Positions 1,943 to 44,064 of a stretch of DNA of 56,611 bases are shown here, one piece after another. The notes below the pieces were generated by a model that ran no database searches, was not told the DNA's origin, and saw only the letters and a program-made list of their open reading frames with translations. How positions within the stretch are numbered: the first letter of the stretch is position 1; the number at the start of each line of letters is the position of its first letter. This stretch comes from a virus. The position numbers and the translations under genes were made by a program. The stretch lies in the IMG/VR virus record IMGVR_UViG_3300035698_023821, positions 1 to 56,611 of that record; one strand, given 5' to 3'.

Positions 1943-1945
1943 AAG

Positions 1946-2200: not shown

Positions 2201-2209
2201 ACCTTCCTC

Positions 2210-3030: not shown

Positions 3031-3033
3031 GCT

Positions 3034-3501: not shown

Positions 3502-3504
3502 ACC

Positions 3505-19677: not shown

Positions 19678-20513
19678 TTTACCCATCCTCCTAATTCCTT
19701 CATGGCTTTATCAAACTGCTCTCCTGATGGTGTTCTCGCGTGCCAGAGAGGAGCATTTTCCATAAACTCGATTCCATTACCCTTTACCGTATCGCAGATA
19801 AACATTGTTGGTTGTCTATTCATTCTCCGTCTCATATTGCCAAAGTTGAGTAATAATTCCCCAATATTGTGACCATTCATCCGAACAACATTCCAGCCAA
19901 ATGCTTCCCACTTCTTGCTCAACGGTTCCAGAGAACACATATCCTCGGTGAAATCCGTTGCACCAAGGGAATTCCTGTCAATAATGGCAACCAAGTTATT
20001 GAGATAATTGTGCGATGCAACTGTTGCCGCTTCCCATACACTGCCTTCATAGCATTCAGCATCACCCATCAGGCACCACACGAGGGGGAGTTCTCTCTTT
20101 AATTTGAGCCCAAGAGCAATACCTGATGCCACGCCAAGCCCGTGTCCAAGACTACCTGTTGAGAGTTCGACTCCGGGAACGGTATTTTGCAAATGCACGG
20201 CAAAGTGAGCATCAGGAGCGTTAAACTCTCCACACCAGCTTTCCGGGAAGAATCCAAGGTCGGCGAGGAGGCAATATAGGATTGGACTTGCTTGCCCTTT
20301 GCTGAGGATGAACCTGTCCCTCTTTCTCCACTCTGGCTCTTTTGGTCTAACATTTAATATGCCTCCGTAATATAATGTTACCAGTATTTCCGCGATTGAG
20401 AAGGAACTATTTATGTGACCAGTACCTGCTTTGCTACACATGGCGAGAGTGGCGCGCTTCAACTTCAATACAATTTCCTGGATTTTATTCACTGAGGTGG
20501 TATTTCTTGACAT
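19674..20513 (-). CDS. Transketolase-like N-terminal (TPP-binding) subunit
   Basis: 279 aa. Thiamine diphosphate-binding domain: SKAGTGHINSSFSIAEIL near residue 30, STGSLGHGLGVASGIALGLK near 120, then the GDAECYEGSVWEAA motif and NLVAIIDRNSLG that bind Mg and TPP. Together with the next gene it forms a full-length split transketolase. Such split enzymes occur in secondary-sugar pathways; in a phage they are unusual. ATG 20513 (GGAG 6 nt upstream) is preferred over an upstream in-frame TTG at 20531. Confidence 0.87.
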   Translation of the reverse strand: MSRNTTSVNKIQEIVLKLKRATLAMCSKAGTGHINSSFSIAEILVTLYYGGILNVRPKEPEWRKRDRFILSKGQASPILYCLLADLGFFPESWCGEFNAPDAHFAVHLQNTVPGVELSTGSLGHGLGVASGIALGLKLKRELPLVWCLMGDAECYEGSVWEAATVASHNYLNNLVAIIDRNSLGATDFTEDMCSLEPLSKKWEAFGWNVVRMNGHNIGELLLNFGNMRRRMNRQPTMFICDTVKGNGIEFMENAPLWHARTPSGEQFDKAMKELGGWVK

Positions 20514-20859
20514 TCTCCACTCCTTCTCCAAAATGCCTGTTCACTTCATTGCACAACACTATCCTGCGCGTATTGATTTTCCTTATCTCGATTGCTCTCC
20601 TTCCAACCTCCATTACGTCACCATCCAAATGCCTTTGTCTGATTGCGCTTTCCAAATCCCAAATCTGAGAGTTCACGTTTAACAATCTTTTGAAAGTATT
20701 CTCAATATAGGCATCCTCATCCTTATACTTATTGAGCAGCTCCAGATAGCCCTCTTTGAACAATTCAAACTCTTTGTGTGCGCCTGGAGAACTAATCCTT
20801 TCCATTTTCAGAGTCGCTATGGAAAACCTGTCGAGTATGTCTCCAGCGTCACGAATCAT
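20485..20859 (-). CDS. Helical protein, DUF6165-like
   Basis: 124 aa, nearly all helix: AGDILDRFSIATLKMERISS at the N-terminus, NVNSQIWDLESAIRQRHLDG in the middle and a basic helix with RRAIEIRKINTRRI. This is the layout of small proteins found next to glycosyltransferases and sugar-nucleotide genes (DUF6165-like). No catalytic motif; perhaps a partner of a transferase in this cassette. Confidence 0.55.
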   Translation of the reverse strand: MIRDAGDILDRFSIATLKMERISSPGAHKEFELFKEGYLELLNKYKDEDAYIENTFKRLLNVNSQIWDLESAIRQRHLDGDVMEVGRRAIEIRKINTRRIVLCNEVNRHFGEGVENVKKYHLSE

Positions 20860-21070
20860 CCTCTGTCTCCATATCGATTACAAATTCCTTGTCAGGTTTC
20901 AATGGTTCCCTTTCTCCGAGATTGTGGTAGATTTTGGCATTTACATCCTCTGTGAATGTCATCTCTGTAGTTGTAGGTGGATTAAGATGTCCTTCCCCAG
21001 AGTGAATATATTTAGTATCATGTAGTATCATACAGTGCTTGTGGTTCTTTATTATCAACCTTATAACCAT
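20849..21070 (-). CDS. Small acidic cassette protein
   Basis: 73 aa. It begins MVIRLIIKNHKHCMILHDTK and ends acidic (ETEDDS), with a proline/threonine-rich middle. Not recognised. The start at 21070 is coupled to the stop of the radical SAM gene (TAATG), and its own stop overlaps the next start, so it is translated with the cassette. Confidence 0.5.
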   Translation of the reverse strand: MVIRLIIKNHKHCMILHDTKYIHSGEGHLNPPTTTEMTFTEDVNAKIYHNLGEREPLKPDKEFVIDMETEDDS

Positions 21071-22167
21071 TATGCAAACCCCCAACACATAGGGTCATCC
21101 TTATTGATAAATAGTCGCTCACATTGTTCACAATAGGGTCCGAGAGTACAGCGAGTTTTACATTTACTACTTGTATCGCCCTGAATCAGATTCAGATGGC
21201 GCGCTTTTCCCCAAAATCTGAGAATGTTGATCGGTTCCGGATAATGAGTTCCCAGCACCAGGTCTTCATTATGCCTCTGGTCGATGCAATAGTAGACATT
21301 GCCGTCTGCGCAAAGCTGAATAATGAGACCGGAAGCGTAACAGTGGGAGAAACGCTTACTTGTGCCATGGAAGTCCTCATCGAACTTGTGCACGGGAGTA
21401 TAGACGTGGAAGTCGGAATTGGAAAAGCTATGACACGCCTCCAACTGGGTACGGATAGAGGTCATGTCGAATTCGCCAAATACTCCCCGGAGCTCTCCCA
21501 TACCCTGATGGTTATAATCCATGGGACGTGCTTGGAAATCCCTCACGCCTAAATCCCTCGCTATCGAGCAAGCCTCGTATATTTCGTGCTGATTAATGGG
21601 CGAGATAAGGAACTTGTAATTAATATCACAAGATTTATCCTTCTCATTCAGCTTAACCAGTTTCTTAATGTTATCCAGCACCTTGCCGAATAGGTTGGTT
21701 CCCTTCAATTCCTCGTATGTGCCGCCGGAAGCTGCATCCACGCTGATTCCAATCCAGCGACAAGTCTCTATTATTGCATCAGCAAGTTTGTCAGACATAA
21801 TGGTACCGTTTGTAGAGAGAGAACTCTCCATTCCTTTTGCTTTGGAATAGAGGAGTGCGGATGATAGTCCTGGGTGCATTGTGGGTTCGCCGCCGCCGCC
21901 AAAACAGTTAGCTTTTACTCCCCACTCAGAGAGGAAATCTATCAGGTTGAAGAGATGCTCATCCGTCATCTTTTGTGGATTCTCCCGCCTATACCGGACT
22001 GCATTACAATGCTTGCAATCAAGATTACAGGCATGGATCGGATCAATGGACGCCTCTATGGGGGGAAAAATTTTCCCCTCTGCTATCCCTTTGTACCAAT
22101 CTGCATAGAGAAGACCTTTCCAACTATTGAAACTATTAAACTTATCCCATTCTGCCCATTCTATCAT
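21070..22167 (-). CDS. Radical SAM/SPASM-type enzyme
   Basis: 365 aa. The radical SAM motif CNLDCKHC lies at residues ~48-55. It is followed by ANCFGGGGEPTMHPGLSSA, the conserved SAM-binding GGEP, and SLSTNGT. The C-terminal part has extra cysteines suited to auxiliary clusters (CADGNVYYCIDQ; CKTRCTLGPYCEQC), as in SPASM or twitch proteins that modify peptides or sugars. It overlaps its neighbours by 1-4 bases. Substrate unknown; the surrounding sugar genes suggest glycan chemistry. Confidence 0.85.
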   Translation of the reverse strand: MIEWAEWDKFNSFNSWKGLLYADWYKGIAEGKIFPPIEASIDPIHACNLDCKHCNAVRYRRENPQKMTDEHLFNLIDFLSEWGVKANCFGGGGEPTMHPGLSSALLYSKAKGMESSLSTNGTIMSDKLADAIIETCRWIGISVDAASGGTYEELKGTNLFGKVLDNIKKLVKLNEKDKSCDINYKFLISPINQHEIYEACSIARDLGVRDFQARPMDYNHQGMGELRGVFGEFDMTSIRTQLEACHSFSNSDFHVYTPVHKFDEDFHGTSKRFSHCYASGLIIQLCADGNVYYCIDQRHNEDLVLGTHYPEPINILRFWGKARHLNLIQGDTSSKCKTRCTLGPYCEQCERLFINKDDPMCWGFA

Positions 22168-22349
22168 GCTTTTTTCTCCTTTATTCTCTTTCCCGTCACA
22201 TCAAGTGGAATGTTAGTCCAGTTTTCAGTTTTCATCCCCTTCAGTATTAAATCTATAATAGCAAACCCTTCATCACTTACTTCACATGACACTCCACAGC
22301 GTTTACTTTCCAAATCTACAAGAGCTGTAATAATTACTTGCTTTGTCAT
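22164..22349 (-). CDS. Small conserved-type phage protein
   Basis: 61 aa: VIITALVDLESKRCGVSCEV followed by a hydrophobic helix and a Lys-rich end. Its plan (beta strand, V-D-hydrophobic-E, C-G-x-x-C) resembles the 56-residue module fused to the C-terminal polymerase half at 38.8 kb. Function unknown. ATG 22349 follows an AAAGGG site; upstream in-frame codons would overlap the 44 aa gene. Confidence 0.5.
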   Translation of the reverse strand: MTKQVIITALVDLESKRCGVSCEVSDEGFAIIDLILKGMKTENWTNIPLDVTGKRIKEKKA

Positions 22350-22365
22350 TATTTGACCCTTTCTG

Positions 22366-22500
22366 CTATCCAGTAAAGTTAATGAACTTAGTGAACTGTT
22401 TCCACTTGAGGTCACCATGAATCAGTATATCGAAGTCTCTTGGGTGGAACTTACCCAGTCTCTCCATTTCCCTATGGAATGCTCTTACAGATAGATTCAT
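22366..22500 (-). CDS. 44 aa cassette microprotein
   Basis: 44 aa: NLSVRAFHREMERLGKFHPR then DFDILIHGDLKWKQF. Its start overlaps the neuB-like stop (ATGA), and the stop is followed after 16 bases by the next start. Charged and helical, with no membrane segment. Supported by coupling and by its fit in an otherwise gap-free operon. Function unknown. Confidence 0.5.
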   Translation of the reverse strand: MNLSVRAFHREMERLGKFHPRDFDILIHGDLKWKQFTKFINFTG

Positions 22501-23378
22501 TCTACTACCTTCCTGAGTTTTTTCATTATTGGTATCTCGCTCTCATATACTTTCTTGACCCCATCTCCCATGGCGGATTCTACTATGCGAATATCACGCA
22601 CAAGCCGGCGCAAACCTTCCGGTTCGAGGGAAGCGGCTTGGTCACTACCCCACATAGATCGGTCGAGTGTTATGTGACGCTCGACAAAGGCTGCACCCAG
22701 AGCAACTGCTGCAAGAGTAGTCTGGAGTCCCCGCTCGTGACCGGAATAACCGATTGGACATTCAAAATGACCATGTAACATCTGTATCATGCGAAGATTT
22801 AATTCCTCATTTCTTGCCGGATATGTACTTGTACAATGGGCAACAAGAAGACGCTCATTATTATAACTGCTCTCCAATGGGGTATATGCTGCATGACCTA
22901 TTTCATCCCATGTTGACATTCCAGTGGAGAGAATTACTGGTTTGTTCTTAGAACTCACATACTTCAACAGCTTGTCATTAGTCAAACACGCTGACGGAAT
23001 CTTGTAACAGGGAGCATTAAATGCTTGCATGAAATCCACTGCTTGCTCGTCCCAGCAGGAGGCGAACCAGGTAATGTGATTGCTTGCACAGTAATCGCCA
23101 ATCTCTTCATAATCATCTGTATCGAACTCGACCTGGTTTCGATAATCCATGTAGGATATGCGACCCCAGGGAGTGTCCCGCATCACATCCCTTTGCTCGG
23201 CAGGAACACAGAGTTCAGGAGTACGCTTTTGGAACTTGACAGCATTGCAGCCAGCAGAGACAGCTACGTCTATGAGCTGTTTGGCAATCTCAAGGTTACC
23301 ATTATGATTAATACCAATTTCAGCTATGATATACGTCGGGTATCCGTTCCCGACCGCTGTGTTCCCGATTTTTACCAT
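22497..23378 (-). CDS. neuB: N-acetylneuraminate (nonulosonate) synthase-like protein without SAF domain
   Basis: 293 aa TIM-barrel synthase: YIIAEIGINHNGNLEIAK, NAVKFQKR, FASCWDEQAVDF, YKIPSACLTND, ILSTGMSTWDEI, YSGHERGL and VERHITLDRSMWGSDQAAS. These are the substrate- and metal-binding blocks of NeuB, which condenses phosphoenolpyruvate with a six-carbon amino sugar. Typical NeuB proteins are ~340-350 aa with a C-terminal SAF (antifreeze-like) domain; this one stops near residue 293, where SAF would begin. Start ATG 23378 lies inside neuA (59 nt overlap). Confidence 0.88.
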   Translation of the reverse strand: MVKIGNTAVGNGYPTYIIAEIGINHNGNLEIAKQLIDVAVSAGCNAVKFQKRTPELCVPAEQRDVMRDTPWGRISYMDYRNQVEFDTDDYEEIGDYCASNHITWFASCWDEQAVDFMQAFNAPCYKIPSACLTNDKLLKYVSSKNKPVILSTGMSTWDEIGHAAYTPLESSYNNERLLVAHCTSTYPARNEELNLRMIQMLHGHFECPIGYSGHERGLQTTLAAVALGAAFVERHITLDRSMWGSDQAASLEPEGLRRLVRDIRIVESAMGDGVKKVYESEIPIMKKLRKVVE

Positions 23379-24045
23379 TTTCTCTTTCCTTGAGCAACGC
23401 TTCTGCAATAACAAGGTCATCTGCTTCATCTATCTCTATGTGTGGATGGTTTCCACAATTATAAACTGCTACCTTACCGAAGAAGCGGTGTTGGGATTTC
23501 AAAAACCCTTCCCTTCGCATAACATAGACTCCGCCTGTTTCCACAAATTGTGTGCTTCTTTCCTGTCGCCGGAACCGTACTCTTTTGTCGTGATTAAGAC
23601 CATTACCATGATTATCCCAGAGAAAGTAGTGGAAGGGGACAACGGACAGGGCGGAATCAGCATCCTCCTCAACAAGAGTTTGTATTGTCCTATCAATGTC
23701 GTCACTAACAGTTAAGGGAGACGTGCACTGCAAGAACACAATCAAATCCGGTTCATAATCCTCCACGCTCTTCAGATGAGCGAGAACATGAAGGAGAACG
23801 GATTCAGCCGATGCCAGGTCGCCACTAAGCTCATCCGGACGTACTACCACTTCAGCCCCATATTGGATTGAGTGCCATTCAATTTCGCTATCATCTGTTG
23901 ATACTATTACTCTATCTACCAAACCGGAATCGAGAGCCGCTTCAATCATCCATGCGACAAGGGGCTTACCGCATAACATGCGAATATTCTTGCGCGGGAT
24001 ACCTTTGCTTCCACCACGAGCTGGTATTATTGCGATTATTTTCAT
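23320..24045 (-). CDS. neuA: CMP-nonulosonate synthetase (acylneuraminate cytidylyltransferase-like)
   Basis: 241 aa. The nucleotide-binding signature IIPARGGSKGIPRKNIRML at the N-terminus, GKPLVAWMIEAAL, VIVSTDDSEI, LQCTSPL and a C-terminal HPHIEIDEADDL are all NeuA/PseF-type motifs. The enzyme activates a nonulosonic acid with CTP. It is paired with neuB immediately downstream. ATG 24045 overlaps the methyltransferase stop (ATGA) with GGTGGG upstream. Confidence 0.9.
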   Translation of the reverse strand: MKIIAIIPARGGSKGIPRKNIRMLCGKPLVAWMIEAALDSGLVDRVIVSTDDSEIEWHSIQYGAEVVVRPDELSGDLASAESVLLHVLAHLKSVEDYEPDLIVFLQCTSPLTVSDDIDRTIQTLVEEDADSALSVVPFHYFLWDNHGNGLNHDKRVRFRRQERSTQFVETGGVYVMRREGFLKSQHRFFGKVAVYNCGNHPHIEIDEADDLVIAEALLKERENGKNREHSGRERIPDVYHS

Positions 24046-24653
24046 ACTTTTACCCACCAAATGTTAGCTTTTGTGTAAGTCTTCTCCTTACCCTCGAATG
24101 CTTCACCGACCGCTTTTATGACACCCGGATGAGATTTGTTATAATCATGCCCGCACAGTACTCCACCTTTTTTCACTTTTTGCAACCACAATTTAATATC
24201 CTGCCCTACAAACTCGTATTCGTGATCCCCGTCAATAAAGAATACATCAAAGGTTCTATTTCCTACTATCTTCGAGGCAGTTTCTGAATCCATTCGTAGA
24301 ATGCTGACATTTTTAATCCCAGCCCACTTAATGTTTTCCATAAAGGTGTTGAAAATATCATTCTTGCCCGCTAATTCCGCTAAGTGCTTATTAACACCGG
24401 TCGACCCCTTGAACCAATCAATAGCGATGAGGGAACCGCCATATTTCGTTATCTCTCTCGCAGTAGCGATTGTTGAACTCCCTATCCAACAGCCCAACTC
24501 ACCTACAAGCGGATTCTTAATACCGGTAAGGATATCCCTATAGATAGTTGCCAAAGCTCTACTATCGTGTGGCGAGAACTGACCACAATCGTTCGGTATA
24601 GTAATATGCACGTCCGGGCGGATTATCGCCCCTGATTCACTTCCCGGTAACAA
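24042..24653 (-). CDS. Class I SAM-dependent methyltransferase
   Basis: About 203 aa. Motif I reads LVGELGCWIGSSTIATA, then SLIAIDWFKG (acidic strand 2 end), FDVFFIDGDHEYEFV and KKGGVLCGHDYNKSHPGV, the pattern of Methyltransf_24-type small O-methyltransferases. Likely methylates a sugar or glycan of the cassette. The frame is open upstream to an ATG at 24764, but that would overlap the glycosyltransferase by 128 nt. TTG 24653, with GGGGAGGG 9 nt before it, is preferred. Confidence 0.75.
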   Translation of the reverse strand: MLPGSESGAIIRPDVHITIPNDCGQFSPHDSRALATIYRDILTGIKNPLVGELGCWIGSSTIATAREITKYGGSLIAIDWFKGSTGVNKHLAELAGKNDIFNTFMENIKWAGIKNVSILRMDSETASKIVGNRTFDVFFIDGDHEYEFVGQDIKLWLQKVKKGGVLCGHDYNKSHPGVIKAVGEAFEGKEKTYTKANIWWVKV

Positions 24654-25332
24654 GATTAAAATCCCTCCCCCAGAGTAATTTCCGGCGTCTGCGTTCTGCA
24701 TTGAGCTCAACATCATGTTGTTTATTCCGCCTAATCCAGCGATTAGTCCCGTCTGTTTCCGCACCGGAACCGGGTGTATGATGCAAGAGAAAAGCGGATT
24801 CGCAGAAGTGGAATTTGCCTATGCCGTCTGCAAATTTTCCAAGTTCATAATCTATGTAAAATACAAGGTATTCCGGGCAGAATACGTTGCGAAATGCAAA
24901 TCTGTCAGCAAACTTCATACCAATTGCGCCAAAAGCTGCCGGGACTGTGACAAGGGCTGGAAGATTGGCTTGGCGAATACCAACAACGCCGTCAAAGTCA
25001 GGGAATTTGGCTCTGAATGCTCCTTTCACTTGTCTAATACACTCTACATCCACTTCTGTATCGTCACAGAGGTACATAAACACATCGGCTTTGGTTTCTT
25101 GGAGTCGCGCATTCCAGAATAGAGGTGGAATGAACTCCACAGTGAGGATTCTGAAATGCAACCAGTAATAATCAATCCAGTTGTATTTTATTCTAAACTC
25201 TTCCAATTCCTTGCCTGAATCAAACCATACATAGACATGCACGCCCTCTTCCATGGCACGCTGTATAGAATTAAGACAATCATTGAGCACTTTGGGTCGT
25301 TGTCGCGTTGGAATGTGAATATCAATTTTCAT
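24637..25332 (-). CDS. Glycosyltransferase, GT2-like
   Basis: 231 aa. It begins MKIDIHIPTRQRPKVLNDCL, a GT-A family start, with VFMYLCDDTEVDVECIRQ around residue 90 supplying the D-D-x metal-binding motif and a C-terminal helix-rich part. Probably uses a nucleotide sugar to modify a glycan. Overlaps the bifunctional gene upstream by 4 nt. Short compared with full GT2 enzymes (~300 aa), so the acceptor domain is minimal. Confidence 0.7.
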   Translation of the reverse strand: MKIDIHIPTRQRPKVLNDCLNSIQRAMEEGVHVYVWFDSGKELEEFRIKYNWIDYYWLHFRILTVEFIPPLFWNARLQETKADVFMYLCDDTEVDVECIRQVKGAFRAKFPDFDGVVGIRQANLPALVTVPAAFGAIGMKFADRFAFRNVFCPEYLVFYIDYELGKFADGIGKFHFCESAFLLHHTPGSGAETDGTNRWIRRNKQHDVELNAERRRRKLLWGRDFNLVTGK

Positions 25333-26885
25333 CGCCCAACTTCTCCTTTCAACCTTCTTGCTGCCTGGTGATGCTCAATAACCGGGTCTCCCAAGTATGC
25401 CATTGTATCCCAAATCTGGCAATAGGCGGGAGGAAGTTCCAGTATCGAGAGCAATCCAGTCCATTTTTGTAGCCTCTGTACCTCGTTCTTGCCATAGCCG
25501 AGAAGATTTTGTAGATTTGTTTGTTCCATAGGATGAGTGTTATAATTTTTCTTATTCAATTCAATCCAGGCGTCTATGAAGGCCTTACTTCTGGCATTGT
25601 TTGCAATATACAAAGTTCCACTAAGAACCTCTGTCCCTTTAACATAATGTTCATGTTCAAGCCTATACTTGTAATGTTTTATGTTCTCGGAAAAATTAGC
25701 AATGAATACGCCAAAATCCTCTTTCACATTATCGAATAGTTCAGGATACTGCATCATTACGGCATCGGCGTCCACCCAGAGCAGGTTTCTACCAGGATGC
25801 TTATCCAGCATTTCCCGGATAAAAGTTGCCTTATAGTAGGTATTCGCCTTCCAACCGCCCATATTGGGTTTGGGAACTATATCATAATCGAAACCGAACT
25901 TGATTACAGATTCTCTTAGCCTTTTTGCTTCCTTCTCATAAGTAGTATTCTCTGTATAGTATGATATTACAAGAGGACGGTTCGGCTTAGGCTCTTGCTC
26001 CAACACCTTACTAATAGTGCTGGTTGGGAAACATTTGAGAGCGGAGTTCTGAGTGAGGTTGATGACACTCGTACCAGTTCCCTTTATTCTTGCCAAATCC
26101 TTATTAAGCTCCTCTACGAAACCGGGATATACTGCCTCTGATTGGAGTTCGGGATAACCGTTATGGAACCACTTTTGCCTACCCTTACCGTCACCCTTCA
26201 TATCGAATCCGAGAAGGTAGATAGGGTTTGCTCCGAGCAGGATGGCGAGATTGATTGCCGCATGGCCGGAATTGGAACCACAGGGTTGAAGGTCGTCCAA
26301 AGCTACGACGCGTATATCATCGGGGAAGACAAAATTCGTATAGTTTATCCAAACCTTCATACCTTTGAATTCCTCATACTTTCTTACTGCTTCCTCGCCA
26401 AAATCCCCGCGAACTATCCAGCCCCAGACGCGGGGGTCCATGCAGAACATGACACTCGGGTTATATTTCTCGAATGCTCGGTTGATTCCGATAGAAAGCT
26501 CTCCGTCCAGCAAGCTCCAGTCGAATTTCTTGAGTGATGGGCCGCCCCCGACTATGAAGCAGCGTTTTCCTTTCCACAAGCTGTGGGGCCATGTTCGCCA
26601 CAACTCCTCACCTTTGAGAGTTCCCATGTAATCCGTGGGAGTTGCTCTCCAAATGTCTGATTTTGGCGCTGGTCTCCCGCGACCGGCTGCTCTGGTTGGT
26701 GCTATGCTCCTTCTATGTTTGCCTAAATCACTGAGGGTCAGGATAGGGACAACTCTCCTCTTTTCTTCCGGCACTGGTTTTCTTCTCCCCATATTGCCCA
26801 TTGTGAGCGGTTGCTGGACACGAATAGGTTCAATATTGATAATAGCCTGTTTTGTAATATTACTTAACGTAACCGGTTTCTGCAT
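25329..26885 (-). CDS. Fusion of Maf/GT42-like domain and a second glycosyltransferase
   Basis: 518 aa. After a basic ~95-residue leader comes a domain with CFIVGGGPSLKKFDWSLL and SIGINRAFEKYNP, SGHAAINLAILLGANPIYLLG: the G-G-G-P-S-L loop and layout of Maf/MptE or GT42 proteins (residues ~105-295). A GT-A domain follows (residues ~315-500) with LLWVDADAVMMQYPELF, a D-x-D metal site. A two-step transferase for the cassette product is plausible. Which nucleotide sugar each half uses is unknown. Confidence 0.7.
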   Translation of the reverse strand: MQKPVTLSNITKQAIINIEPIRVQQPLTMGNMGRRKPVPEEKRRVVPILTLSDLGKHRRSIAPTRAAGRGRPAPKSDIWRATPTDYMGTLKGEELWRTWPHSLWKGKRCFIVGGGPSLKKFDWSLLDGELSIGINRAFEKYNPSVMFCMDPRVWGWIVRGDFGEEAVRKYEEFKGMKVWINYTNFVFPDDIRVVALDDLQPCGSNSGHAAINLAILLGANPIYLLGFDMKGDGKGRQKWFHNGYPELQSEAVYPGFVEELNKDLARIKGTGTSVINLTQNSALKCFPTSTISKVLEQEPKPNRPLVISYYTENTTYEKEAKRLRESVIKFGFDYDIVPKPNMGGWKANTYYKATFIREMLDKHPGRNLLWVDADAVMMQYPELFDNVKEDFGVFIANFSENIKHYKYRLEHEHYVKGTEVLSGTLYIANNARSKAFIDAWIELNKKNYNTHPMEQTNLQNLLGYGKNEVQRLQKWTGLLSILELPPAYCQIWDTMAYLGDPVIEHHQAARRLKGEVGR

Positions 26886-26894
26886 TCTATTTTC

Positions 26895-28286
26895 CTATGA
26901 TTGGCGATAACCGCGAAAGCTGGCATCCCTGTTCCCATAAAGGTTCCTTGTAATACTCTCTGCTCTGTTGAACTTCTTTCCATAGTAGTTCTTGAGTAGT
27001 GTCAAATTAGCCTTCTCCAAAACTGCATAGAATTCCTTATCACTTAGGTTTGTAAAGTTCACTGTTAGCAAGTCGGAGTTCACATGCTTGTTTTCATAGA
27101 AATCCTCGACACCCTTAAGCAATCCTTGTTCAATAGCATGATAGTAGAGAGGAGAGCCCGGATATGGCGTCACCGGTCGAATCGTGCGTAATTGAGCACC
27201 ATCGTCATATTTGAGAAGGAATTCCACGCCCTTCTGAAGAGTTTCCGCATTGTCACCAATGTTGCCAAATATTATATTGAAGCCTGGGCTGACACCTGCC
27301 TTTAGTGTTGCCTCAATACCGGATACTATTTGCTCCGTTATCAAATGCTTGTCCATGTTCTCTAATACAGCATTATCGAATGCTTCGATGCCATAATTGA
27401 TAAATACGCAACCAACCCTTTTCATAAGAGCTACAATTTCCTTGGTTGCATAGTTCAATCTCCCGTTGCAAAACCACTTAAATTTTAATCCGGATTTCAG
27501 AATTGCTTCACATAATTCCACCACTCGCCCTTTGCTCGACATGAGCAACTCGTCTGCGAAATCAATATAAGTAATACCATAATCCTTTTGTAAAAACTCA
27601 ACCTCGTCGAGTATCCCCTCTACCGAACGCATCCTATACCCTTTGTCCATACGGTAACAGAAGTTGCATTGGAAAGTACAACCGCGAGCGGAAAGGACTG
27701 GCATGAGGAAGTCGGTAGGGGTACAATGCGGCAATCTCATCAACCTGTAATACTCAATAGGAAACAGATCGTATGCTGGGAAGGGAATGCTATCAATATC
27801 TTTGATGGGCGGTCGTCTTGGATTGGTGAATATATCTTTACCGCTCTTGTATGCTATTCCTTTCACGTTGGACAATAACCCATAAAGGGAAAGCTGTTCC
27901 ATCACTTCGAGAACCGTTTCTTCCCCCTCACCCATGACGACAATATCCGCCTTGGTTTTTTCCAAGAAGTATTCAGGCTCCGGTGTTGGGCCATGTCCTG
28001 CGAGTACATAGTAATCCGGTCGATTATCCGATGCTGCTATTGCTCTGGAAATACTCAATACTTTCCTGTATTGCCAATACCCTGCAATGAATCCCAAACC
28101 CACAACGTCGAAGTTATTATTATCCAGATACTTTGTCAAATGCTCTTCGGAAGAGTGATACACGTCCTGATTATACACTACTACCTCGTGTCCACGCTCC
28201 CTCAATACGGATGCAATATGGCCAGTACCGATAGGAAACAGGTGGATGTGGGACTCATTATCATAAACTATTAATAGAATCTTCAT
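26895..28286 (-). CDS. B12-binding radical SAM enzyme
   Basis: 463 aa. N-terminal cobalamin-binding-like domain (residues 1-150: GHIASVLRERGHEVVVYNQD, DVVGLGFIAG, VVMGEGEETV). The radical SAM core has SARGCTFQCNFCYR (C-x3-C-x2-C) near residue 203, then YIDFADELLMSS and FNIIFGNIGDNAETL. Family members methylate or cyclise unactivated carbons. First gene of the cassette, 58 bases after the capsid gene stop, with a hairpin in between. Confidence 0.85.
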   Translation of the reverse strand: MKILLIVYDNESHIHLFPIGTGHIASVLRERGHEVVVYNQDVYHSSEEHLTKYLDNNNFDVVGLGFIAGYWQYRKVLSISRAIAASDNRPDYYVLAGHGPTPEPEYFLEKTKADIVVMGEGEETVLEVMEQLSLYGLLSNVKGIAYKSGKDIFTNPRRPPIKDIDSIPFPAYDLFPIEYYRLMRLPHCTPTDFLMPVLSARGCTFQCNFCYRMDKGYRMRSVEGILDEVEFLQKDYGITYIDFADELLMSSKGRVVELCEAILKSGLKFKWFCNGRLNYATKEIVALMKRVGCVFINYGIEAFDNAVLENMDKHLITEQIVSGIEATLKAGVSPGFNIIFGNIGDNAETLQKGVEFLLKYDDGAQLRTIRPVTPYPGSPLYYHAIEQGLLKGVEDFYENKHVNSDLLTVNFTNLSDKEFYAVLEKANLTLLKNYYGKKFNRAESITRNLYGNRDASFRGYRQS

Positions 28287-37562: not shown

Positions 37563-37944
37563 TACAATTAAAGTAAACAGGCTCATCCCCGTCACAAATT
37601 ATTGTTATGCCATCTGCCAGTGGGCAATTCACTATTATCGCTACCATCCATGACGCCCAGAGAATATAACCTATCCCCCAACACACAAACCATACTATAG
37701 GATTAGCCCCATCGTAATCAAAAGCCGTAATTAATCTAATATCTATGAATAAGCAGATACCATAATATAGAATAGTAAACAAGCATGAATAGACTATTAC
37801 CTTGATTGCTGTAGTATGCGAGCAATCCCACAATGATTTCTCTTCCATGTTATCTGATATGCGCCCATACAAGAAATCATGTAGCAAAACTACAAACAAT
37901 ATTATTACTCCTAAGAATATGAAGAATCCTCCAGCTACTACCAT
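37558..37944 (-). CDS. Membrane protein with about three spans
   Basis: About 128 aa. Hydrophobic segments at residues ~2-22 (VVAGGFFIFLGVIILFVVLL), ~50-70 (IVYSCLFTILYYGICLFI) and ~80-105 (IVWFVCWGIGYILWASWMVA). Its start overlaps the polymerase stop (ATGGTAG), so it is coupled to the C-terminal polymerase half. Unknown function; possibly a replication membrane anchor or superinfection factor. Confidence 0.6.
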   Translation of the reverse strand: MVVAGGFFIFLGVIILFVVLLHDFLYGRISDNMEEKSLWDCSHTTAIKVIVYSCLFTILYYGICLFIDIRLITAFDYDGANPIVWFVCWGIGYILWASWMVAIIVNCPLADGITIICDGDEPVYFNCR

Positions 37945-38873
37945 TTCCATTCCTCCATACTGTTCCAATTCAACCCTACCTTAACATCGACCGGGGTAGG
38001 GATAGTTAGCTCGATTACCTCTTCCATAATCCGTGCCAGCATAGGGACGGCCGCATCCAGTATGCAATCCTCTATCTCCCACAATATCTCATCATGCACC
38101 TGCAATAGAGGACGCACTACATAGCCAAGAGCATCCCAGGCACGATATACTGGTACTAATTGCTTCATCGCCTCCTTGATAATACCCTGAGCACCCGATT
38201 GGATAGGCGCGTTCACCGCCTCTCGCAAACCTCCTTCCTGAATCCATTTGTGTGATGAGAACACTTCCGGCACATAGCGGCGCCGACCAAACATATCCAG
38301 CACAAAACCATTTCTCCTTGCAAATGCCCGAATCTCATCCGCCCACTCGAAGTAGCCGGCATACTTCCTTTCCCAATTCTGGATAAACTTTCTGCAATCA
38401 GCCTCAGTGAAGGCTACAATATTTTCGTGCTGGAATCTAATAAGCAACCCTCTGGCTGTTATTCCATAGATGACGCCGAAATTGGTAGTCTTTGCCGGAC
38501 GCCGATGTTTGCTCGAATCAATATCTTCCGGCGGTAACCCGAACATTGCACAAGCCGTCTCCAGATGTATATCCCCGCCCTTGCGATATACCTCCAGCAT
38601 TGCCTCATCCTGACTCAGATGCGCCGCCATCCGAAGTTCTATTTGACTATAATCCATTTGCGACCAAGTGACAATCAACCACTTGTCTCCCCCAAAACAT
38701 TCGGAACATCTTGTATAGCGGCTCCACCGGGCAACCTTATCCCATCCCTTATCTACTATCTGTGCATGAAATAAATTGCAATAAGCATACTCCTGATTAA
38801 TGAATTTACAATCGCATCCACAAAGTTGCCCGTCTATATCTACGATGACTTCTATTGTTAATCTCTCCTGCAT
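37938..38873 (-). CDS. Family A DNA polymerase, C-terminal half (palm and fingers), with added Cys module
   Basis: About 311 aa. The first ~60 residues are a separate module (LTIEVIVDIDGQLCGCDCKF, YAYCNLF, RYTRCSEC) like small free-standing phage proteins. The polymerase part then begins at WLIVTWSQ and holds motif A (DYSQIELRMAAH), the O-helix motif B (RRPAKTTNFGVIYG) and motif C (VHDEILWEIE). The catalytic aspartates and the lysine and aromatic residues of motif B are intact. It must combine with the N-terminal half at 39414-40619. ATG 38873 or 38876. Confidence 0.88.
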   Translation of the reverse strand: MQERLTIEVIVDIDGQLCGCDCKFINQEYAYCNLFHAQIVDKGWDKVARWSRYTRCSECFGGDKWLIVTWSQMDYSQIELRMAAHLSQDEAMLEVYRKGGDIHLETACAMFGLPPEDIDSSKHRRPAKTTNFGVIYGITARGLLIRFQHENIVAFTEADCRKFIQNWERKYAGYFEWADEIRAFARRNGFVLDMFGRRRYVPEVFSSHKWIQEGGLREAVNAPIQSGAQGIIKEAMKQLVPVYRAWDALGYVVRPLLQVHDEILWEIEDCILDAAVPMLARIMEEVIELTIPTPVDVKVGLNWNSMEEWKW

Positions 38874-38889
38874 CATTCTCTTCTTTCTG

Positions 38890-39231
38890 CTATGAACCAT
38901 TCTCTTCCTCGAACCATTCTTGTGTTGCTGATACCCATGATTGTTCACAACCTGGACACAGTAGAAGTGTAATATTAAATAATACACCCTCACCTATAAC
39001 AGGAAATCCACCTGTCAGGCCGTAATTAGTTTCATCCAAATCATTCGCTAATACTACTTTGGATAAATTGGATACGATTTCGAGGTTTCCGCAACGGTCA
39101 CATACACCCCAATCATCCCCTAATAACGCTCTAACATCTTCCCACAATACCCAAGCACCTCCGCGTGACTCCTTCATTTCTATTTCTTGCTTGCCCATAT
39201 CGCCAACTAATGATTTTAAATACCGTTTCAT
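38890..39231 (-). CDS. Zinc-ribbon protein inside the split polymerase locus
   Basis: About 113 aa: KRYLKSLVGDMGKQEIEMKE, then CDRCGNLEIV and LLLCPGCEQSW forming two C-x2-C knuckles, and an acidic end. ATG 39231 (GGAG 9 nt upstream) is preferred to 39261. Not a homing endonuclease by motif. It lies in the 732 bp segment that separates the two polymerase halves. Confidence 0.55.
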   Translation of the reverse strand: MKRYLKSLVGDMGKQEIEMKESRGGAWVLWEDVRALLGDDWGVCDRCGNLEIVSNLSKVVLANDLDETNYGLTGGFPVIGEGVLFNITLLLCPGCEQSWVSATQEWFEEENGS

Positions 39232-39264
39232 TATCATTCTCTCCTTTCTATTACGAGACATGAT

Positions 39265-39414
39265 TTAAAACTGTTGTGTATTGCTTTTGCCGTGAACAAA
39301 CACGTTATAAAATGTATCATCCTCATCTCTGCCTGGACAGATTTCTGTTACAATACCCGCAAAATTTATTTCAACCAAATCACCCTCTTTAAATCTCGGT
39401 TTAAAATCAGCCAT
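39265..39414 (-). CDS. 49 aa protein inside the split polymerase locus
   Basis: 49 aa: MADFKPRFKEGDLVEINFAG, then IVTEICPGRDEDDTFYN and a short end. It looks like a small beta-barrel (SH3-like) with a K/E-x-G-D-L-V-E start. The start is coupled to the stop of the polymerase N-half (ATGATG, with GGAG in the last polymerase codons). Unknown function. Confidence 0.6.
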   Translation of the reverse strand: MADFKPRFKEGDLVEINFAGIVTEICPGRDEDDTFYNVFVHGKSNTQQF

Positions 39415-40619
39415 CATTCACTCCTTTCTGCTACAAACCCTTCTCTTATTCGCCTTCCGTCTTCGCTCCTGACCGGTTGGTTTTGCAGGTTCGGATTGCT
39501 GCTTGCAAGTCGCCCAGTTGCTGTTCGTGTAACACTAAGGCTTGTATGCACACGTCCATTACCGTCTGTGAGACTCGGCAACACGCTGATATATGTCGAA
39601 TTGAGCTTTTTATATCCCCGATAGTCCTGCACAAGTCGGACAAGCTCATCTCCTCTATGGGCATCGAGTTCTTTTGCATCTGTACTCCTGATACTAAGCC
39701 CTCTTCCTCTAAGAGCTTTAAGAACTCGGGGCGAGCTTCCGGGGTTAAGATAACCCGTGTTAATTTCTTCAATTCGTTCAAGAATTCCTTCTGCGTTTTC
39801 ATCAAACTCCTCCTCCAGTTTGTAAAAGTGTTCCTTATTAATACCAATACCCTCTTGCATCATATCAATCACCATTGGAATCATGCCCATATCGCGCCAG
39901 AATACGCCCTCCTGTCCACTTTCTACTATCATAGACCAAAGTATCGGATAGAGGCGCAGGGTTGCATCGGGGTCCATGCAAGCATAGTGGACAGCATCGG
40001 AAAGCGGTATTTCAGAAAGATAACCCGGCTCCATCTTACCGAGAACAGGTTCAATTATATCCCTGTCTTGAGTTCTGTCTTTGTGATTCCAATACTTTAT
40101 GAGGGATTGGGCTGCTGTGCCTGCTTCGTGTTTTTTCAAATATGAAGAGAGTCGTGTCCTAATGTTTTGAGGGAATTTCACATGCTCATCCCCATTAGGG
40201 CGGATTACCAAAACCGGGTTCGGGTCAGGCCAATCCATACTAATTACTTTGTTAAGATATTCTTTTGCTTTTCTGTCCGCGGGTTCTTTTACCACCTCCT
40301 TGTACGACTTGAGGTTCATATTACAATGACGATAGGAAAGTGTTTTCAGACCGATACTGTTTTCACCCAATAGATATGCCATCACCATCGTATCGGCAAA
40401 ACGGTAAGGGATGATGCCAATCGAATTCAGAACCGGCAGGTCGAAGAGGGCATTATGGAGAATAGTCAGGGTTGAGGATGACTCCAGCAGAGTCCGCAGC
40501 GGCTTTAACACTCCCAAGTGACTGACAAGAGCCATCCTCGCAACTCCCGGCTCCTTACACCATTGGACTGACCAGGGGGGATCCCGTACTGTTTCCGTAT
40601 CAATTGCTATTATAGACAT
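39414..40619 (-). CDS. Family A DNA polymerase, N-terminal half (exonuclease and thumb)
   Basis: 401 aa. The 3'-5' exonuclease motifs are present: SIIAIDTETV (Exo I), ILHNALFDLPVLNS (Exo II) and HYACMDPDATLRL (Exo III). The thumb and the start of the palm follow, ending TGRLASSNPNLQNQPVRSED and IREGFVAERSE then TGA. The ORF stops just before motif A, which is on the next gene. ATG 40619 overlaps a membrane microprotein. Together the two genes make a complete ~700 aa polymerase. Confidence 0.9.
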   Translation of the reverse strand: MSIIAIDTETVRDPPWSVQWCKEPGVARMALVSHLGVLKPLRTLLESSSTLTILHNALFDLPVLNSIGIIPYRFADTMVMAYLLGENSIGLKTLSYRHCNMNLKSYKEVVKEPADRKAKEYLNKVISMDWPDPNPVLVIRPNGDEHVKFPQNIRTRLSSYLKKHEAGTAAQSLIKYWNHKDRTQDRDIIEPVLGKMEPGYLSEIPLSDAVHYACMDPDATLRLYPILWSMIVESGQEGVFWRDMGMIPMVIDMMQEGIGINKEHFYKLEEEFDENAEGILERIEEINTGYLNPGSSPRVLKALRGRGLSIRSTDAKELDAHRGDELVRLVQDYRGYKKLNSTYISVLPSLTDGNGRVHTSLSVTRTATGRLASSNPNLQNQPVRSEDGRRIREGFVAERSE

Positions 40620-40750
40620 AGAAGCTCTGGATTTGAGATTATAAAGACGATAAGTAGTATTGCTATCACAAGTACAAACGTACCAAGTGCAATAACCGGA
40701 ATAAAGCGCATCCAATATGTTTTATCCGAATATCCCCAAGGCTCATTCAT
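40610..40750 (-). CDS. Single-span membrane microprotein
   Basis: 46 aa. A polar N-terminus (MNEPWGYSDKTYWMR) precedes one strong transmembrane helix (ALGTFVLVIAILLIVFII). Start ATG 40750 has AAAGGGAAAC upstream. Overlaps the polymerase start by 10 nt. Unknown function. Confidence 0.55.
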   Translation of the reverse strand: MNEPWGYSDKTYWMRFIPVIALGTFVLVIAILLIVFIISNPELLCL

Positions 40751-40763
40751 TTTAGTTTCCCTT

Positions 40764-40949
40764 TCAACCATTACCAGATTCAAATCCCACTCCCGCTACG
40801 AGAAGTTCTGCCCATGAACAATCATCGTCGAAATCCGAACGAGCAATGAAGGCGGGTTCCGGGTCGGTAATCAACGAGCTTGCTTCCATTCTTGGCTTAT
40901 TATACCACGGATGCTTCGTGCTATGACGACGTTCTGTATTCTTATCCAC
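40764..40949 (-). CDS. Small acidic protein
   Basis: 61 aa from GTG 40949 (AAAGGAAAGAATT before it): KNTERRHSTKHPWYNKPRME, then PEPAFIARSDFDDDCSWAEL. No family recognised. Preceded by a possibly structured RNA leader at 40969-41071. Confidence 0.5.
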   Translation of the reverse strand: MDKNTERRHSTKHPWYNKPRMEASSLITDPEPAFIARSDFDDDCSWAELLVAGVGFESGNG

Positions 40950-40968
40950 AATTCTTTCCTTTCTTTAG

Positions 40969-41071
40969 TGGGCTGGCGTCCACCTACAACCACCATTAGC
41001 GGACTGTGATATTGGCTTACGAGAAACGTGTCTTCCCCGGATGGTTTCACAGCTTTTCAGCCTCCAGCCCC
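40969..41071 (-). ncRNA. Candidate structured leader RNA
   Basis: On the minus strand GGGCTGG (41070-41064) pairs with CCAGCCC (40976-40970), enclosing CTGTGA/TCACAG (41052-41047 with 41009-41004) and GTCCGC/GGTGGAC near the 3' side. This would be a closed stem with two inner arms. It lies in a gap between genes and upstream of the 61 aa gene. Not a tRNA (no T-loop) and not a riboswitch class I recognise. Pairing only; no covariation available. Confidence 0.4.
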
Positions 41072-41074
41072 TTT

Positions 41075-41164
41075 TTATTTCTTTTCGATAAATGAGAGTA
41101 TGTACAATATTATAATTGCAATAGATTGTAGGACATCAATCATTATTTGTTCCATTAGAGTCAT
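41075..41164 (-). CDS. Single-span membrane microprotein
   Basis: 29 aa: TLMEQIMIDVLQSIAIIILY then a short basic end. Almost entirely one transmembrane helix. GGGAG lies 8 nt before ATG 41164. Very short, so support is modest: coding fit, site and position. Confidence 0.4.
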   Translation of the reverse strand: MTLMEQIMIDVLQSIAIIILYILSFIEKK

Positions 41165-41182
41165 CGCCACTGCTCCCATTAT

Positions 41183-41290
41183 TTATTTCATTTTTACAAG
41201 TATTCCTACGAGCAATCCAACAATAATCGGGCAACAAATAATTAGCACAACCCAAATATCTTTCAATGTTTCAAGAATTTTAGCTTCCAC
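41183..41290 (-). CDS. Single-span membrane microprotein
   Basis: 35 aa from GTG 41290, just after the stop of the ASCH-like gene: EAKILETLKDIW then a transmembrane helix VVLIICCPIIVGLLVGILV. The GGAG of the preceding gene's last codons serves it. One of a set of tiny membrane proteins in this genome. Confidence 0.45.
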   Translation of the reverse strand: MEAKILETLKDIWVVLIICCPIIVGLLVGILVKMK

Positions 41291-41291
41291 G

Positions 41292-41819
41292 TCATTCTCC
41301 TTTCTCAATGTACCATCCCCAACGAATAAGGTGTTTGTCGGGAATACATACTTCATCAATGCCTAACTTCACTATTTTATCCAAAGTAAAAAGGTCTTTA
41401 AACTGCACCGCCTCGACCTTACCGATTTTCCAGACATGCCGGCAGGGTGTATCATTTGGGTCTTTCGTTGACATGGTTGCTGGGGAGTGCCATTTGTCAT
41501 CAAGAACATAAACCTCCTCGAAAGACTTATCACTCATTAACCTTATATGCTCTTTAAAATCAGCAATACTTTCAAAGCCGTCTGCTTTATAAGCATATAG
41601 TCCATCAGAGATTTCGCTAAATGCTCTCCCGTCCGGACGGCGTACATAATTGCGTGTTTGGTATATAGTCCACGCCTCGCAGATGAACAGCTTATCGCCT
41701 TCCTTGCAGAGTTTGTTTTCATCTCTGTAATTTATCACTCTTGGCACAAACATCGCCGTTGCGCCTTCGTTGAGTCTCTTTGCTGTCGCTTCGTTGGCAC
41801 AGATACGTTTGTTAGACAT
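41292..41819 (-). CDS. ASCH/PUA-like domain protein
   Basis: 175 aa. The centre KEGDKLFICEAWTIYQTRNY and VYVLDDKWHSPATM followed by a beta-rich end matches the plan of ASCH/PUA-like phage proteins, which bind RNA or modified bases. The N-terminus has basic and acidic helix-forming residues. Overlaps the small gene upstream by 8 nt. Family level only. Confidence 0.5.
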   Translation of the reverse strand: MSNKRICANEATAKRLNEGATAMFVPRVINYRDENKLCKEGDKLFICEAWTIYQTRNYVRRPDGRAFSEISDGLYAYKADGFESIADFKEHIRLMSDKSFEEVYVLDDKWHSPATMSTKDPNDTPCRHVWKIGKVEAVQFKDLFTLDKIVKLGIDEVCIPDKHLIRWGWYIEKGE

Positions 41820-42012
41820 ATTTCCCCCAAGTTTGATAATCCGCTTCGCTCATCTCATCGTCATCATCGTAAGCAAGCAATCTATCTTTATGTTTCTCAC
41901 ATGCAAATATTAATCTACCGTCTGTTCGATATATAGCATTAACTCGTGTAGGTTTGCAGAAAGTACAATATTTCATTCCATTTTGTCTTTCTTTTTCTCT
42001 TATCCTTCTCAC
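41812..42012 (-). CDS. Zinc-finger-type small protein
   Basis: 66 aa from GTG 42012 (AGGAGAGTAAAG upstream). It holds MKYCTFCKPTRVNAIYRTDG and LIFACEKHKDRLLAY, giving C-x2-C and C-x2-H like pairs, then an acidic end (DDDDEMSEADYQ). Possibly zinc binding. Unknown function. Confidence 0.55.
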   Translation of the reverse strand: MRRIREKERQNGMKYCTFCKPTRVNAIYRTDGRLIFACEKHKDRLLAYDDDDEMSEADYQTWGKYV

Positions 42013-42039
42013 CTTTACTCTCCTTCCAGCATTCGGATT

Positions 42040-42219
42040 TTAGACATGGTTATTTCTCCCATCATATTCTGAGTGCAGTACAATTTCACCACTTACAAAA
42101 TGGCTGTATTTCTTTGCGTGTTTGGCAGCAAGAGCTTGAGCATTTTTATAATTATCAAATGCTTTATCGCAATCCCTACATTCAAATATAGCAGATGTTA
42201 GCCATGTAGCTTTTTTCAC
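42040..42219 (-). CDS. Small zinc-finger-like protein
   Basis: 59 aa from GTG 42219 with AAGGAGAGTAAA before it: IFECRDCDKAFDNYKNAQAL then AAKHAKKYSHFVSGE, a C-x2-C...H...H arrangement. Fits the gap between the adjacent genes. Unknown function. Confidence 0.45.
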   Translation of the reverse strand: MKKATWLTSAIFECRDCDKAFDNYKNAQALAAKHAKKYSHFVSGEIVLHSEYDGRNNHV

Positions 42220-42242
42220 TTTACTCTCCTTCCATGATTGTC

Positions 42243-42524
42243 TTATTCCTTCTCGTTTAGCTTTGCGAGTATGGATTGTATTCTGTGTTGCACTATATAT
42301 ATCAAACCGCTTGATAATATTTCGTCAATACCTTTCAACGCCTCAATCATCTCATCGACAACTGCTTCTTTATCGGTGTCTTTAATAATTACATCACATA
42401 ATTGCCACGGGGTTTTAATTTCTTCTCCGTTTGGTTTTAATATGTGGACAGTACCGCAAAGGAAATCAATTTTGCTCACATTGGCTATTTTATTTAATAT
42501 TTTATGTTTGGCTATTAGTCTCAT
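42243..42524 (-). CDS. Uncharacterised helical protein
   Basis: 93 aa: RLIAKHKILNKIANVSKID, a beta part (CGTVHILKPNGEEIKTPWQ), then two helices with EAVVDEMIEALKGIDEI. Start has GGAGAAGG upstream. Not recognised. Confidence 0.5.
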   Translation of the reverse strand: MRLIAKHKILNKIANVSKIDFLCGTVHILKPNGEEIKTPWQLCDVIIKDTDKEAVVDEMIEALKGIDEILSSGLIYIVQHRIQSILAKLNEKE

Positions 42525-42712
42525 TGTCTTATTCCTTCTCCTTTTGCAAAACTGTACAACTCATCCTTTCCTTGCTCATACCAGTACGTGCTACTACAAC
42601 CCAGACAGACGTGGATATTCTTCTTGCCTTTGCTTGCTCTGAATTTCGTCAGTATTACACGGTGACCGCAAGAGGGGCAGGAAGGCAGTTCAATTTCTGT
42701 TTTTGGTCTCAT
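42521..42712 (-). CDS. Zinc-ribbon protein
   Basis: 63 aa: ELPSCPSCGHRVILTKFRAS and IHVCLGCSSTYWYEQG supply two C-x2-C pairs. Typical small zinc ribbon found in phage early operons. Overlaps neighbours by 1-4 bases. Partner unknown. Confidence 0.6.
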   Translation of the reverse strand: MRPKTEIELPSCPSCGHRVILTKFRASKGKKNIHVCLGCSSTYWYEQGKDELYSFAKGEGIRQ

Positions 42713-43314
42713 TATCCTTGCTCCAATCTATAATCAAGTTTGAGCGCATTATCCGAACGGGGTTTCAATTGACCGCGGATTACGCGACCAAGGGCGGTGA
42801 AATCCTCAATCACATCCTTCATCTGGCGCGGAGAGTGCAATCCGTATGCGGGATGGTAGAGAGGAACAACTATAGATTCCATAAGCAGACCCTCCCAGTG
42901 GAAAGGAATACCGTGCACTTTCTCCATTGTTGTTTTGCCAAGAAACCATTGGGTAGACACTCTGCCTACTACGCCTATTATGGCGGAATCGGTATCAATC
43001 AGTTCCGGTTTAAGATAATTCTCCACACAATATTCAATCTCCTTAGCATACGGGTCTCTGTTTTTAGGCGGTTGACACTTTACCAGATTCGTTATGTAGA
43101 AGTGTTCTCTAATCACTCTGGTAAATTGCTTGAGATACATTGTGAGCTCCTGGCCGGACCTGCCTACAAAAGGGGCGCCGTATGCTTCCTCATCCCCTCC
43201 CGGTGCTTCTCCAATCAACGTACAGATAGAAGAAGAGGAACCAGTACCCCAAACTGGCTTGCTACCCTGCAGGGGGCAAGAAATTACATCACAGGTTCGA
43301 GGTTTCATAGTCAT
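42712..43314 (-). CDS. Uracil-DNA glycosylase (family 4-type)
   Basis: 200 aa. Motif 1 LIGEAPGGDEEAYGAPFVGR (uracil-binding, G-E-A-P-G-x-D-E-x-x-G), YITNLVKCQPPKNRDP and the later VVPLYHPAYGLHSPR are the family hallmarks. It excises uracil from DNA. A 4Fe-4S cluster would need additional cysteines; only some are seen (C8, C13), so cluster binding is unclear. Sits beside recombination genes. Confidence 0.85.
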   Translation of the reverse strand: MTMKPRTCDVISCPLQGSKPVWGTGSSSSICTLIGEAPGGDEEAYGAPFVGRSGQELTMYLKQFTRVIREHFYITNLVKCQPPKNRDPYAKEIEYCVENYLKPELIDTDSAIIGVVGRVSTQWFLGKTTMEKVHGIPFHWEGLLMESIVVPLYHPAYGLHSPRQMKDVIEDFTALGRVIRGQLKPRSDNALKLDYRLEQG

Positions 43315-43830: not shown

Positions 43831-44064
43831 TTATTTCAGTTTTCCTAACTGCTTGTGGTAGAGTTTATGACAAGCACCACACAGGGTAACAATATCCGAT
43901 AACCGTTCCATATAGGGACAGCGCTCATAGGTTCTGTGATGAACCTGCAATGGATACTCCGAGCTGCAGATGGCGCAGGAATCACCGTCGAATTCACGCC
44001 GGAGACGGGAGATAGTGCGCCAGTGTTCGGTTTGCAAATACTGTTTGTACTCTGTTCTATCCAT
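43831..44064 (-). CDS. HNH-type endonuclease
   Basis: 77 aa: residues ~30-70 carry SCAICSSEYPLQVHHRTYER and VTLCGACHKLYHKQL, the C-x2-C / H-H / C-x2-C...H zinc-coordinated HNH core. Short free-standing HNH proteins nick or cut DNA. Next to ERCC4 and Sak4 genes; could assist recombination or be a mobile endonuclease. Confidence 0.78.
   Translation of the reverse strand: MDRTEYKQYLQTEHWRTISRLRREFDGDSCAICSSEYPLQVHHRTYERCPYMERLSDIVTLCGACHKLYHKQLGKLK

Follow-up and report, generated by a model that had tools for sequence, protein, structure and literature searches.

The split phage polymerase is a gene arrangement that is already known. According to the available parts of PMC2988022, gene 43 of Aeromonas phages 25 and 44RR, nrdA of Aeh1 and the topoisomerase genes 39/60 of T4 each give an essential phage enzyme in two proteins, and the two gp43 proteins of phage 25 co-purify with activity. 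In the OM43 phages MEP401/MEP402 (OP830906) the polymerase is present as two open reading frames (ORFs) with a small unknown ORF between them, which is tentatively called an intron in the available text of PMC10580990. In LUZ24-like phages such as UFV-P2, polA is annotated as part I and part II with many small ORFs between them, and the accessible sections of PMC3890496 tie this split to introns or HNH genes. Here we analyse the family A polymerase gene (polA) of the IMG/VR record IMGVR_UViG_3300035698_023821, whose whole stretch of 56,611 bases is called the window below. We consider it probable (about 0.75), from the sequences compared here, that this gene is truly split, at the beta-turn that precedes the motif A strand, and that the break serves as a landing site for small accessory genes.

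The window shares some features with each of these systems and differs from each in others. MEP401/MEP402 are cut in the same turn (..FLSRYGE-stop / MILNADAKALE, with a GGAGAA Shine-Dalgarno sequence (SD) in the closing codons), and here too the cut before motif A holds a small unfamiliar ORF. They belong to another polymerase subfamily with motif A DAKALEW, have no uracil-DNA glycosylase (UDG) and contain a single insert gene, and the consulted excerpts of their account do not describe duplicated polymerase ends. The C-halves share 25% identity and the window has intact sisters, which places the two outside one subfamily and line of descent; this identity indicates that another lineage has been split at this site too. 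Three GenBank relatives of MEP401/MEP402 are cut at this same turn with differing contents: the halves abut with no insert in QDWS535, and ctOsX528 has an insert of one 68-aa gene. L248 (MW202796, ct2os315) has a 3.6-kb insert (1635-5232) with a cytosine methyltransferase and a stomatin-like gene between its halves. As far as the available text of their account goes, the Aeromonas, Aeh1 and T4 splits, unlike that of the window, concern a family B polymerase or other enzymes, and what lies between their halves is a homing endonuclease or an untranslated spacer rather than changing cargo genes. The LUZ24-like genes are cut between the exonuclease and polymerase domains (171-aa part I), as are two relatives of the window, L027 and L048. 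The group I introns of SPO1-type polA also interrupt the gene shortly before motif A, but they carry a ribozyme and an HNH enzyme at TGRLSSNP and are spliced. Neither the SD coupling, nor the polymerase-end copies, nor the traded cargo described below was mentioned in the consulted portions of the published accounts of such splits.

Two complementary halves and their relatives

The N-half (39414-40619, minus strand, 401 aa) comprises the 3'-5' exonuclease and the start of the polymerase domain and ends with GFVAERSE-stop; it matches PF01612 and positions 3-149 of the PF00476 profile. The C-half (37938 to about 38682, minus strand, in an open frame of 37938-38993) matches PF00476 at profile positions 154-380 (E 1e-60). 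The exonuclease motifs DTE, HNALFD and YACMD are legible in the N-half translation, and the polymerase motifs A (DYSQIE), B (RRPAKTTNFGVIYG) and C (QVHDE) in that of the C-half. With PF00476 covering both halves, motifs A, B and C, and a PF01612 exonuclease with its three motifs, the enzyme belongs to family A (PolA), and the halves are complementary portions of one polymerase. The gap between them is 732 bp, a length divisible by three.

Scans of viral contigs provided about 150 relatives. It turned out that in most of them UDG, exonuclease and polymerase form a single gene of about 840-960 aa, and the polymerase is intact in L003, L004, L005, L008 and many others. The first-pass annotation had proposed that polA was split by an insertion, and the existence of intact relatives together with the complementarity of the halves bears this out. 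The nearest relative is L005 (66% identity in the N-half and 64% in the C-half), in which the UDG is separate and the Exo-Pol protein of 663 aa is intact; it reads GFIAPPGCHLVAIDYSQIEL over the cut site of the window, with the junction GFIAPPGCHLVAIDYSQ. A first scan of cellular genomes was empty, and an alignment scan of them returned only relatives of 33-41% identity, mostly on bacterial contigs.

The cut is found at the identical codon position in five IMG/VR genomes, namely the window, L006, L007, L097 and L136. In all five the N-half ends with FV[AS]ER[SG]E and a stop (L097 with one additional G), and the C-half starts with MV[DE]C or MIEC, followed by [SH][LF][LV]A and motif A, which in the window is the case in the frame of the GTG at 38682. 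A degenerate DNA pattern of the C-half start matched just L006, L007, L097 and L136 among 2.9 M viral contigs. Besides, the contig L090 terminates at the junction.

An AlphaFold2 (AF2) model of the intact L005 Exo-Pol protein has a mean predicted local distance difference test score (pLDDT) of 91.7 and aligns to Klenow (1kfs) with template modelling (TM) scores of 0.78/0.84. In this model the cut maps to the turn 398-401, which connects a short strand with the motif A strand (402-409, containing Asp408). The ratio of nonsynonymous to synonymous change (pN/pS) is about 0.15-0.35 among split members and between the window and L005, with synonymous-rich, third-position-rich divergence in both halves. 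Because the divergence is rich in third positions, both halves are, on these alignments, maintained under purifying selection.

A coupled operon with copied polymerase ends

The end of the N-half, GGGTTTGTAGCAGAAAGGAGTGAATGATGG (39411-39440, minus strand), codes for G-F-V-A-E-R-S-E-stop and doubles as the SD and start of the first insert gene. Its closing codons, GAR AGG AGT GAR TGA, form the ribosome-binding site AGGAGTGA right ahead of the ATG of that gene. On the other side, the C-half start ATGGTTGA (ATG-GTT-GA) includes GGT-TGA, with which the last insert gene ends in L006, L007 and L136. Since the N-end holds the SD of the first insert gene and the C-start usually overlaps the stop of the last one, the halves and the insert genes are written as a single tightly coupled operon.

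This layout bears on the proposal that a self-splicing intron of group I or II, with small ORFs, fills the gap and that a whole polymerase is made after RNA splicing. Phage polA genes often contain introns (SPO1), one was suggested for MEP401 by its authors in the available text of PMC10580990, and 732 bp is a multiple of three. The insert, however, has no non-coding core; it consists of SD-preceded genes only, whose SDs lie within the terminal codons of the polymerase. The N-half adds ERSE-stop and the C-half adds MVD, MVE or MIE, so joining the conserved residues would require excising exactly the translation signals. The first-pass annotation had kept an intron as an alternative and recommended a covariance search for a group I core; with Rfam models there was no group I or II match in the insert at E<=10, nor in the four same-site relatives at E<=0.1. 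The SPO1 polA intron was recovered at E 4e-4 as a positive control under the same settings as the window insert, and Goe26, a presumed carrier of an SPO1-type intron, gave no match at the stricter E<=0.1, so that the sensitivity is limited and the search counts as moderate evidence only. Moreover, the interruptions of SPO1, Goe26 and L051 (HNH-bearing) are at TGR[LF]..(N)P, well upstream of the turn of the window. We regard splicing as very unlikely.

Two small genes had been noted in the gap; the count is three, all on the minus strand and all preceded by SDs. The first, g1 (39265-39417), has 49-50 aa and no family match, and its ATG overlaps the N-half stop (ATGATGG). The second, g2 (38890-39237), has about 115 aa and two CxxC pairs. 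The third, g3 (38682-38876, start 38873/38876), is cysteine-rich with about 65 aa and runs in frame into the C-half as assembled. A distant homologue of g2 lies at another locus of L007 (8022-8354, E 5e-6), which was the only related record with one, and the scan of viral contigs gave zero; neither g2 nor g3 had a homologue among 50,697 phage records, and g1 shows no similarity to the insert gene of L007. The other inserts differ in content: one gene of 96 aa in L007, one of 77 aa in L097, a helix-turn-helix gene plus a 121-aa cysteine gene in L006, and a 60-aa gene plus a helix-turn-helix gene related to that of L006 (E 2e-6) in L136.

The first-pass annotation had also read a 9-bp target-site repeat at the edges of the insert. 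The 8/9 match of TGGCTGATT (39413-39405) and TGGTTGATT (38681-38673) is present as described, and so is the 732-bp spacing, and this match is what speaks for a transposon-like insertion with a 9-bp target duplication. The 9-mers turned out to be two start-codon contexts (ATGGCTGAT and GTGGTTGAT), and the repeat is absent from the four same-site relatives, where 3-5 of 9 bases match at these positions in three genomes (count by eye) and L097 likewise shows no match. A target-site duplication is thus unsupported, because relatives with the same split do not have the repeat, an outcome which had been named beforehand as one that would weaken the idea. Besides, no transposase or terminal inverted element was recognised, and the inserts are entirely different among the split genomes. 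An origin by transposition is therefore highly improbable.

The repeats that do stand out are copies of the polymerase ends. A 22-bp element of the N-half closing codons, TAGCAGAAAGRAGWGAATGATG, is present in three copies in the 56.6 kb, one at the start of each insert gene and none elsewhere, and shuffled sequences contain none; its 17-bp core is found at the same three sites. When the N-half-end 30-mer was compared with the whole window, the second and third best sites were the start of g3 (24/30; 38870-38899, minus strand) and the start of g2 (21/30; 39231-39260, minus strand), with the next site at 20; against 312 SD-preceded starts the mean was 12.6 (s.d. 2.6). In the polymerase frame, these degraded copies read F-I-A-E-R-R-E-stop before g3 and L-V-I-E-R-R-E-stop before g2, and compared with FVAERSE-stop the changes are mostly conservative. 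L006 and L136 contain one extra N-end copy each (15/17) before the second gene, and the single-gene inserts of L007 and L097 contain no extra copy. Therefore all five genomes have as many polymerase-end copies as insert genes. In L006 the extra N-end copy is fused to a duplicate of the C-half start (MINCSLLALDYSQIE; 34/45 nt, against 26 for the next best site), giving the order N-end / gene / C-start / N-end / gene / C-start. This arrangement would be the outcome expected of unequal recombination between two split alleles.

We propose that a gene cassette inserted at the turn would have opened the polymerase once or a few times. Split alleles with differing cassettes could then have recombined unequally, joining the C-start region of one to the N-end of the other, which would add genes; each added gene would thereby be preceded by a degraded copy of the N-half end. 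Coupled translation of one operon would yield the halves as separate proteins, and by analogy with gp43A/43B of Aeromonas phage 25 they may associate non-covalently into a working polymerase.

Endonucleases, inteins and the motif A turn

Other members of the family are interrupted elsewhere. The same polymerase is broken at the exonuclease/thumb boundary in L027 (5224-6729), L048 (1789-6744), L145, L137, L138 and L141; the C-part of L027 has a helix-turn-helix stretch fused at its front, and the break of L048 contains HNH-like genes. L098 (5359-8757), L117 (4212-7604), L118 (5323-8814) and L120 (5983-8775) have in-frame insertions of ~280 aa at or just before motif A, which are probably inteins lying a few residues from the split site. 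Probable inteins were also seen in the UDG gene of L007 (2266-3876) and in the large terminase of L006 (4716-7262).

The split might go back to the insertion of a homing endonuclease, of the kind seen in gene 43 of phage 25 or nrdA of Aeh1, with the enzyme later replaced by other genes. The identical conserved and functionally critical site in independent genomes is what such a history would give, and the available parts of PMC2988022 offer T4-type precedents. Mobile elements are at hand in the relatives, as the putative inteins at motif A and in the L007 UDG and the HNH genes in the L048 break illustrate, and a helix-turn-helix, a domain type known from homing enzymes, is present at the split site in L006 and L136. 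No insert gene of the window or of the same-site relatives matched a nuclease family, however, and the inserts of all split members were free of HNH, HNH_3 and GIY-YIG domains, so that the endonuclease inside the break that marks split genes of this type is missing here. The sole HNH gene of the window (43831-44064) lies outside the insert and has a homologue at the equivalent place in the intact L005. A homing-endonuclease origin is a possible but doubtful account.

A split intein that ligates the halves in trans would also restore a whole enzyme. Phage polymerase split inteins are known (MIJ3, in the accessible text of PMC6892783), and cis inteins seem to occur at motif A in the relatives mentioned above. 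Against this, the stop immediately follows ERSE with no intein sequence after the N-half, and g3, the 65-aa gene ahead of the C-half, has neither an intein family match nor a terminal HN, which makes this idea extremely improbable.

In phage family A polymerases in general, the motif A turn could be a 'safe harbour', in which a two-subunit enzyme leaves a gap that swaps cargo via the polymerase gene ends (the N-end as a portable SD, the C-start as a coupled start) and which arose in at least two unrelated lineages; we give this wider proposal even odds. If it is true, a replicative polymerase is cut within its palm, beside the strand of the catalytic aspartate, and still functions, and this has happened repeatedly and without splicing, with the break acting as a site of gene exchange. 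The family would then be a system for studying the origin of split essential genes, their re-fusion (the intact L005 beside the split window) and the spread of non-nuclease cargo, as well as a candidate source of natural two-piece Klenow-like polymerases.

Reading frame, history and neighbouring genes

By homology, the native start of the C-half is the GTG at 38682, which reads MVDCHLVA. This start is one base out of frame with MDYSQ (ATG 38657), and the two frames diverge at an AAA run (38657-38659, minus strand), in which the window differs by one base from all relatives. Upstream of motif A, its own frame reads ...GGDKWLIVTWSQ and carries on into g3, and as assembled g3 and the C-half form a single open frame of 312 aa. 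The stretch WLIVTWSQ, which had been taken as polymerase sequence, does not hold as such, since relatives start MVDCSLLALDYSQ or read GCHLVAIDYSQ and the window has VDCHLVA in the other frame. The motif A frame contains an alternative start, TTG 38678, with the SD GGGGGAG 8 nt upstream, and the C-half product may be either a fusion to g3 or the protein started at this TTG. AF2 gives a good model of the C-half in which VTWSQMD forms the motif A strand; g3 stays below pLDDT 50. The offset itself is either a genuine change or an assembly error. In L246 (MW202697, ctOsX528) the frame of the C-half is likewise shifted by one base at motif A, within an A-run (GACGCAAAAAGC, at about 2505-2530), which may be due to chance, an assembly error or a programmed shift.

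The offset between the homologous start and motif A is also the ground for regarding the polymerase as a decaying pseudogene, with the frame offset as a further lesion. The catalytic motifs are all retained, though, both halves are under purifying selection among split members, and the split frames of the four relatives are perfect. In the window, initiation at the SD-preceded TTG gives back an open C-half of comparable length, and the VTWSQMD that this produces takes the place of the motif A strand in the model. Decay is thus unlikely.

Several observations nevertheless weigh against a true split with traded cargo. The C-half of the window has no perfect open frame from the homologous start codon. 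The trees disagree: in the N-half tree the window groups with L005 (100/99) and the remaining split members group together, and a single split clade is rejected by the N-half (approximately unbiased test, p-AU 5e-9) and not by the C-half (p 0.18). A test for a transferred tract on the junction side was non-significant (permutation p 0.07-0.09). Finally, the recombination model leans on short degraded repeats that contain SDs, and selection for good ribosome-binding sites could partly mimic them. Because the N-half tree pairs the intact L005 with the window, the split appears to have moved, recurred or been reversed; on these alignments it may have arisen repeatedly or been transferred, or L005 may have re-fused. 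Near the C-half start, the identity of the window to L006/L007 is as high as to L005, and sites close to the junction tend towards L006/L007. Horizontal transfer of the split with a flanking tract was considered as well and is not claimed at the permutation p given above.

Relative to the family, the polymerase of the window is broken twice, once inside the polymerase domain and once between UDG and exonuclease. The UDG, which is joined to the polymerase N-terminus in most relatives, is here a stand-alone gene (42712-43314, minus strand) 2.1 kb upstream, and it is likewise separate in L005, L014, L007, L097 and L136. The 2.1 kb between UDG and the N-half (40620-42711) are occupied by small genes. 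The HNH gene of the window encodes 77 aa and lies upstream of the UDG, two genes away; its L005 counterpart (3532-3813) is immediately upstream of the UDG. This HNH gene is a candidate driver of mobility in trans. Elsewhere in the window, 17531-28286 contains transketolase halves and radical SAM, NeuB-like and sugar/nucleotidyl look-alikes (judged by eye only), an odd cargo for a phage of this size.

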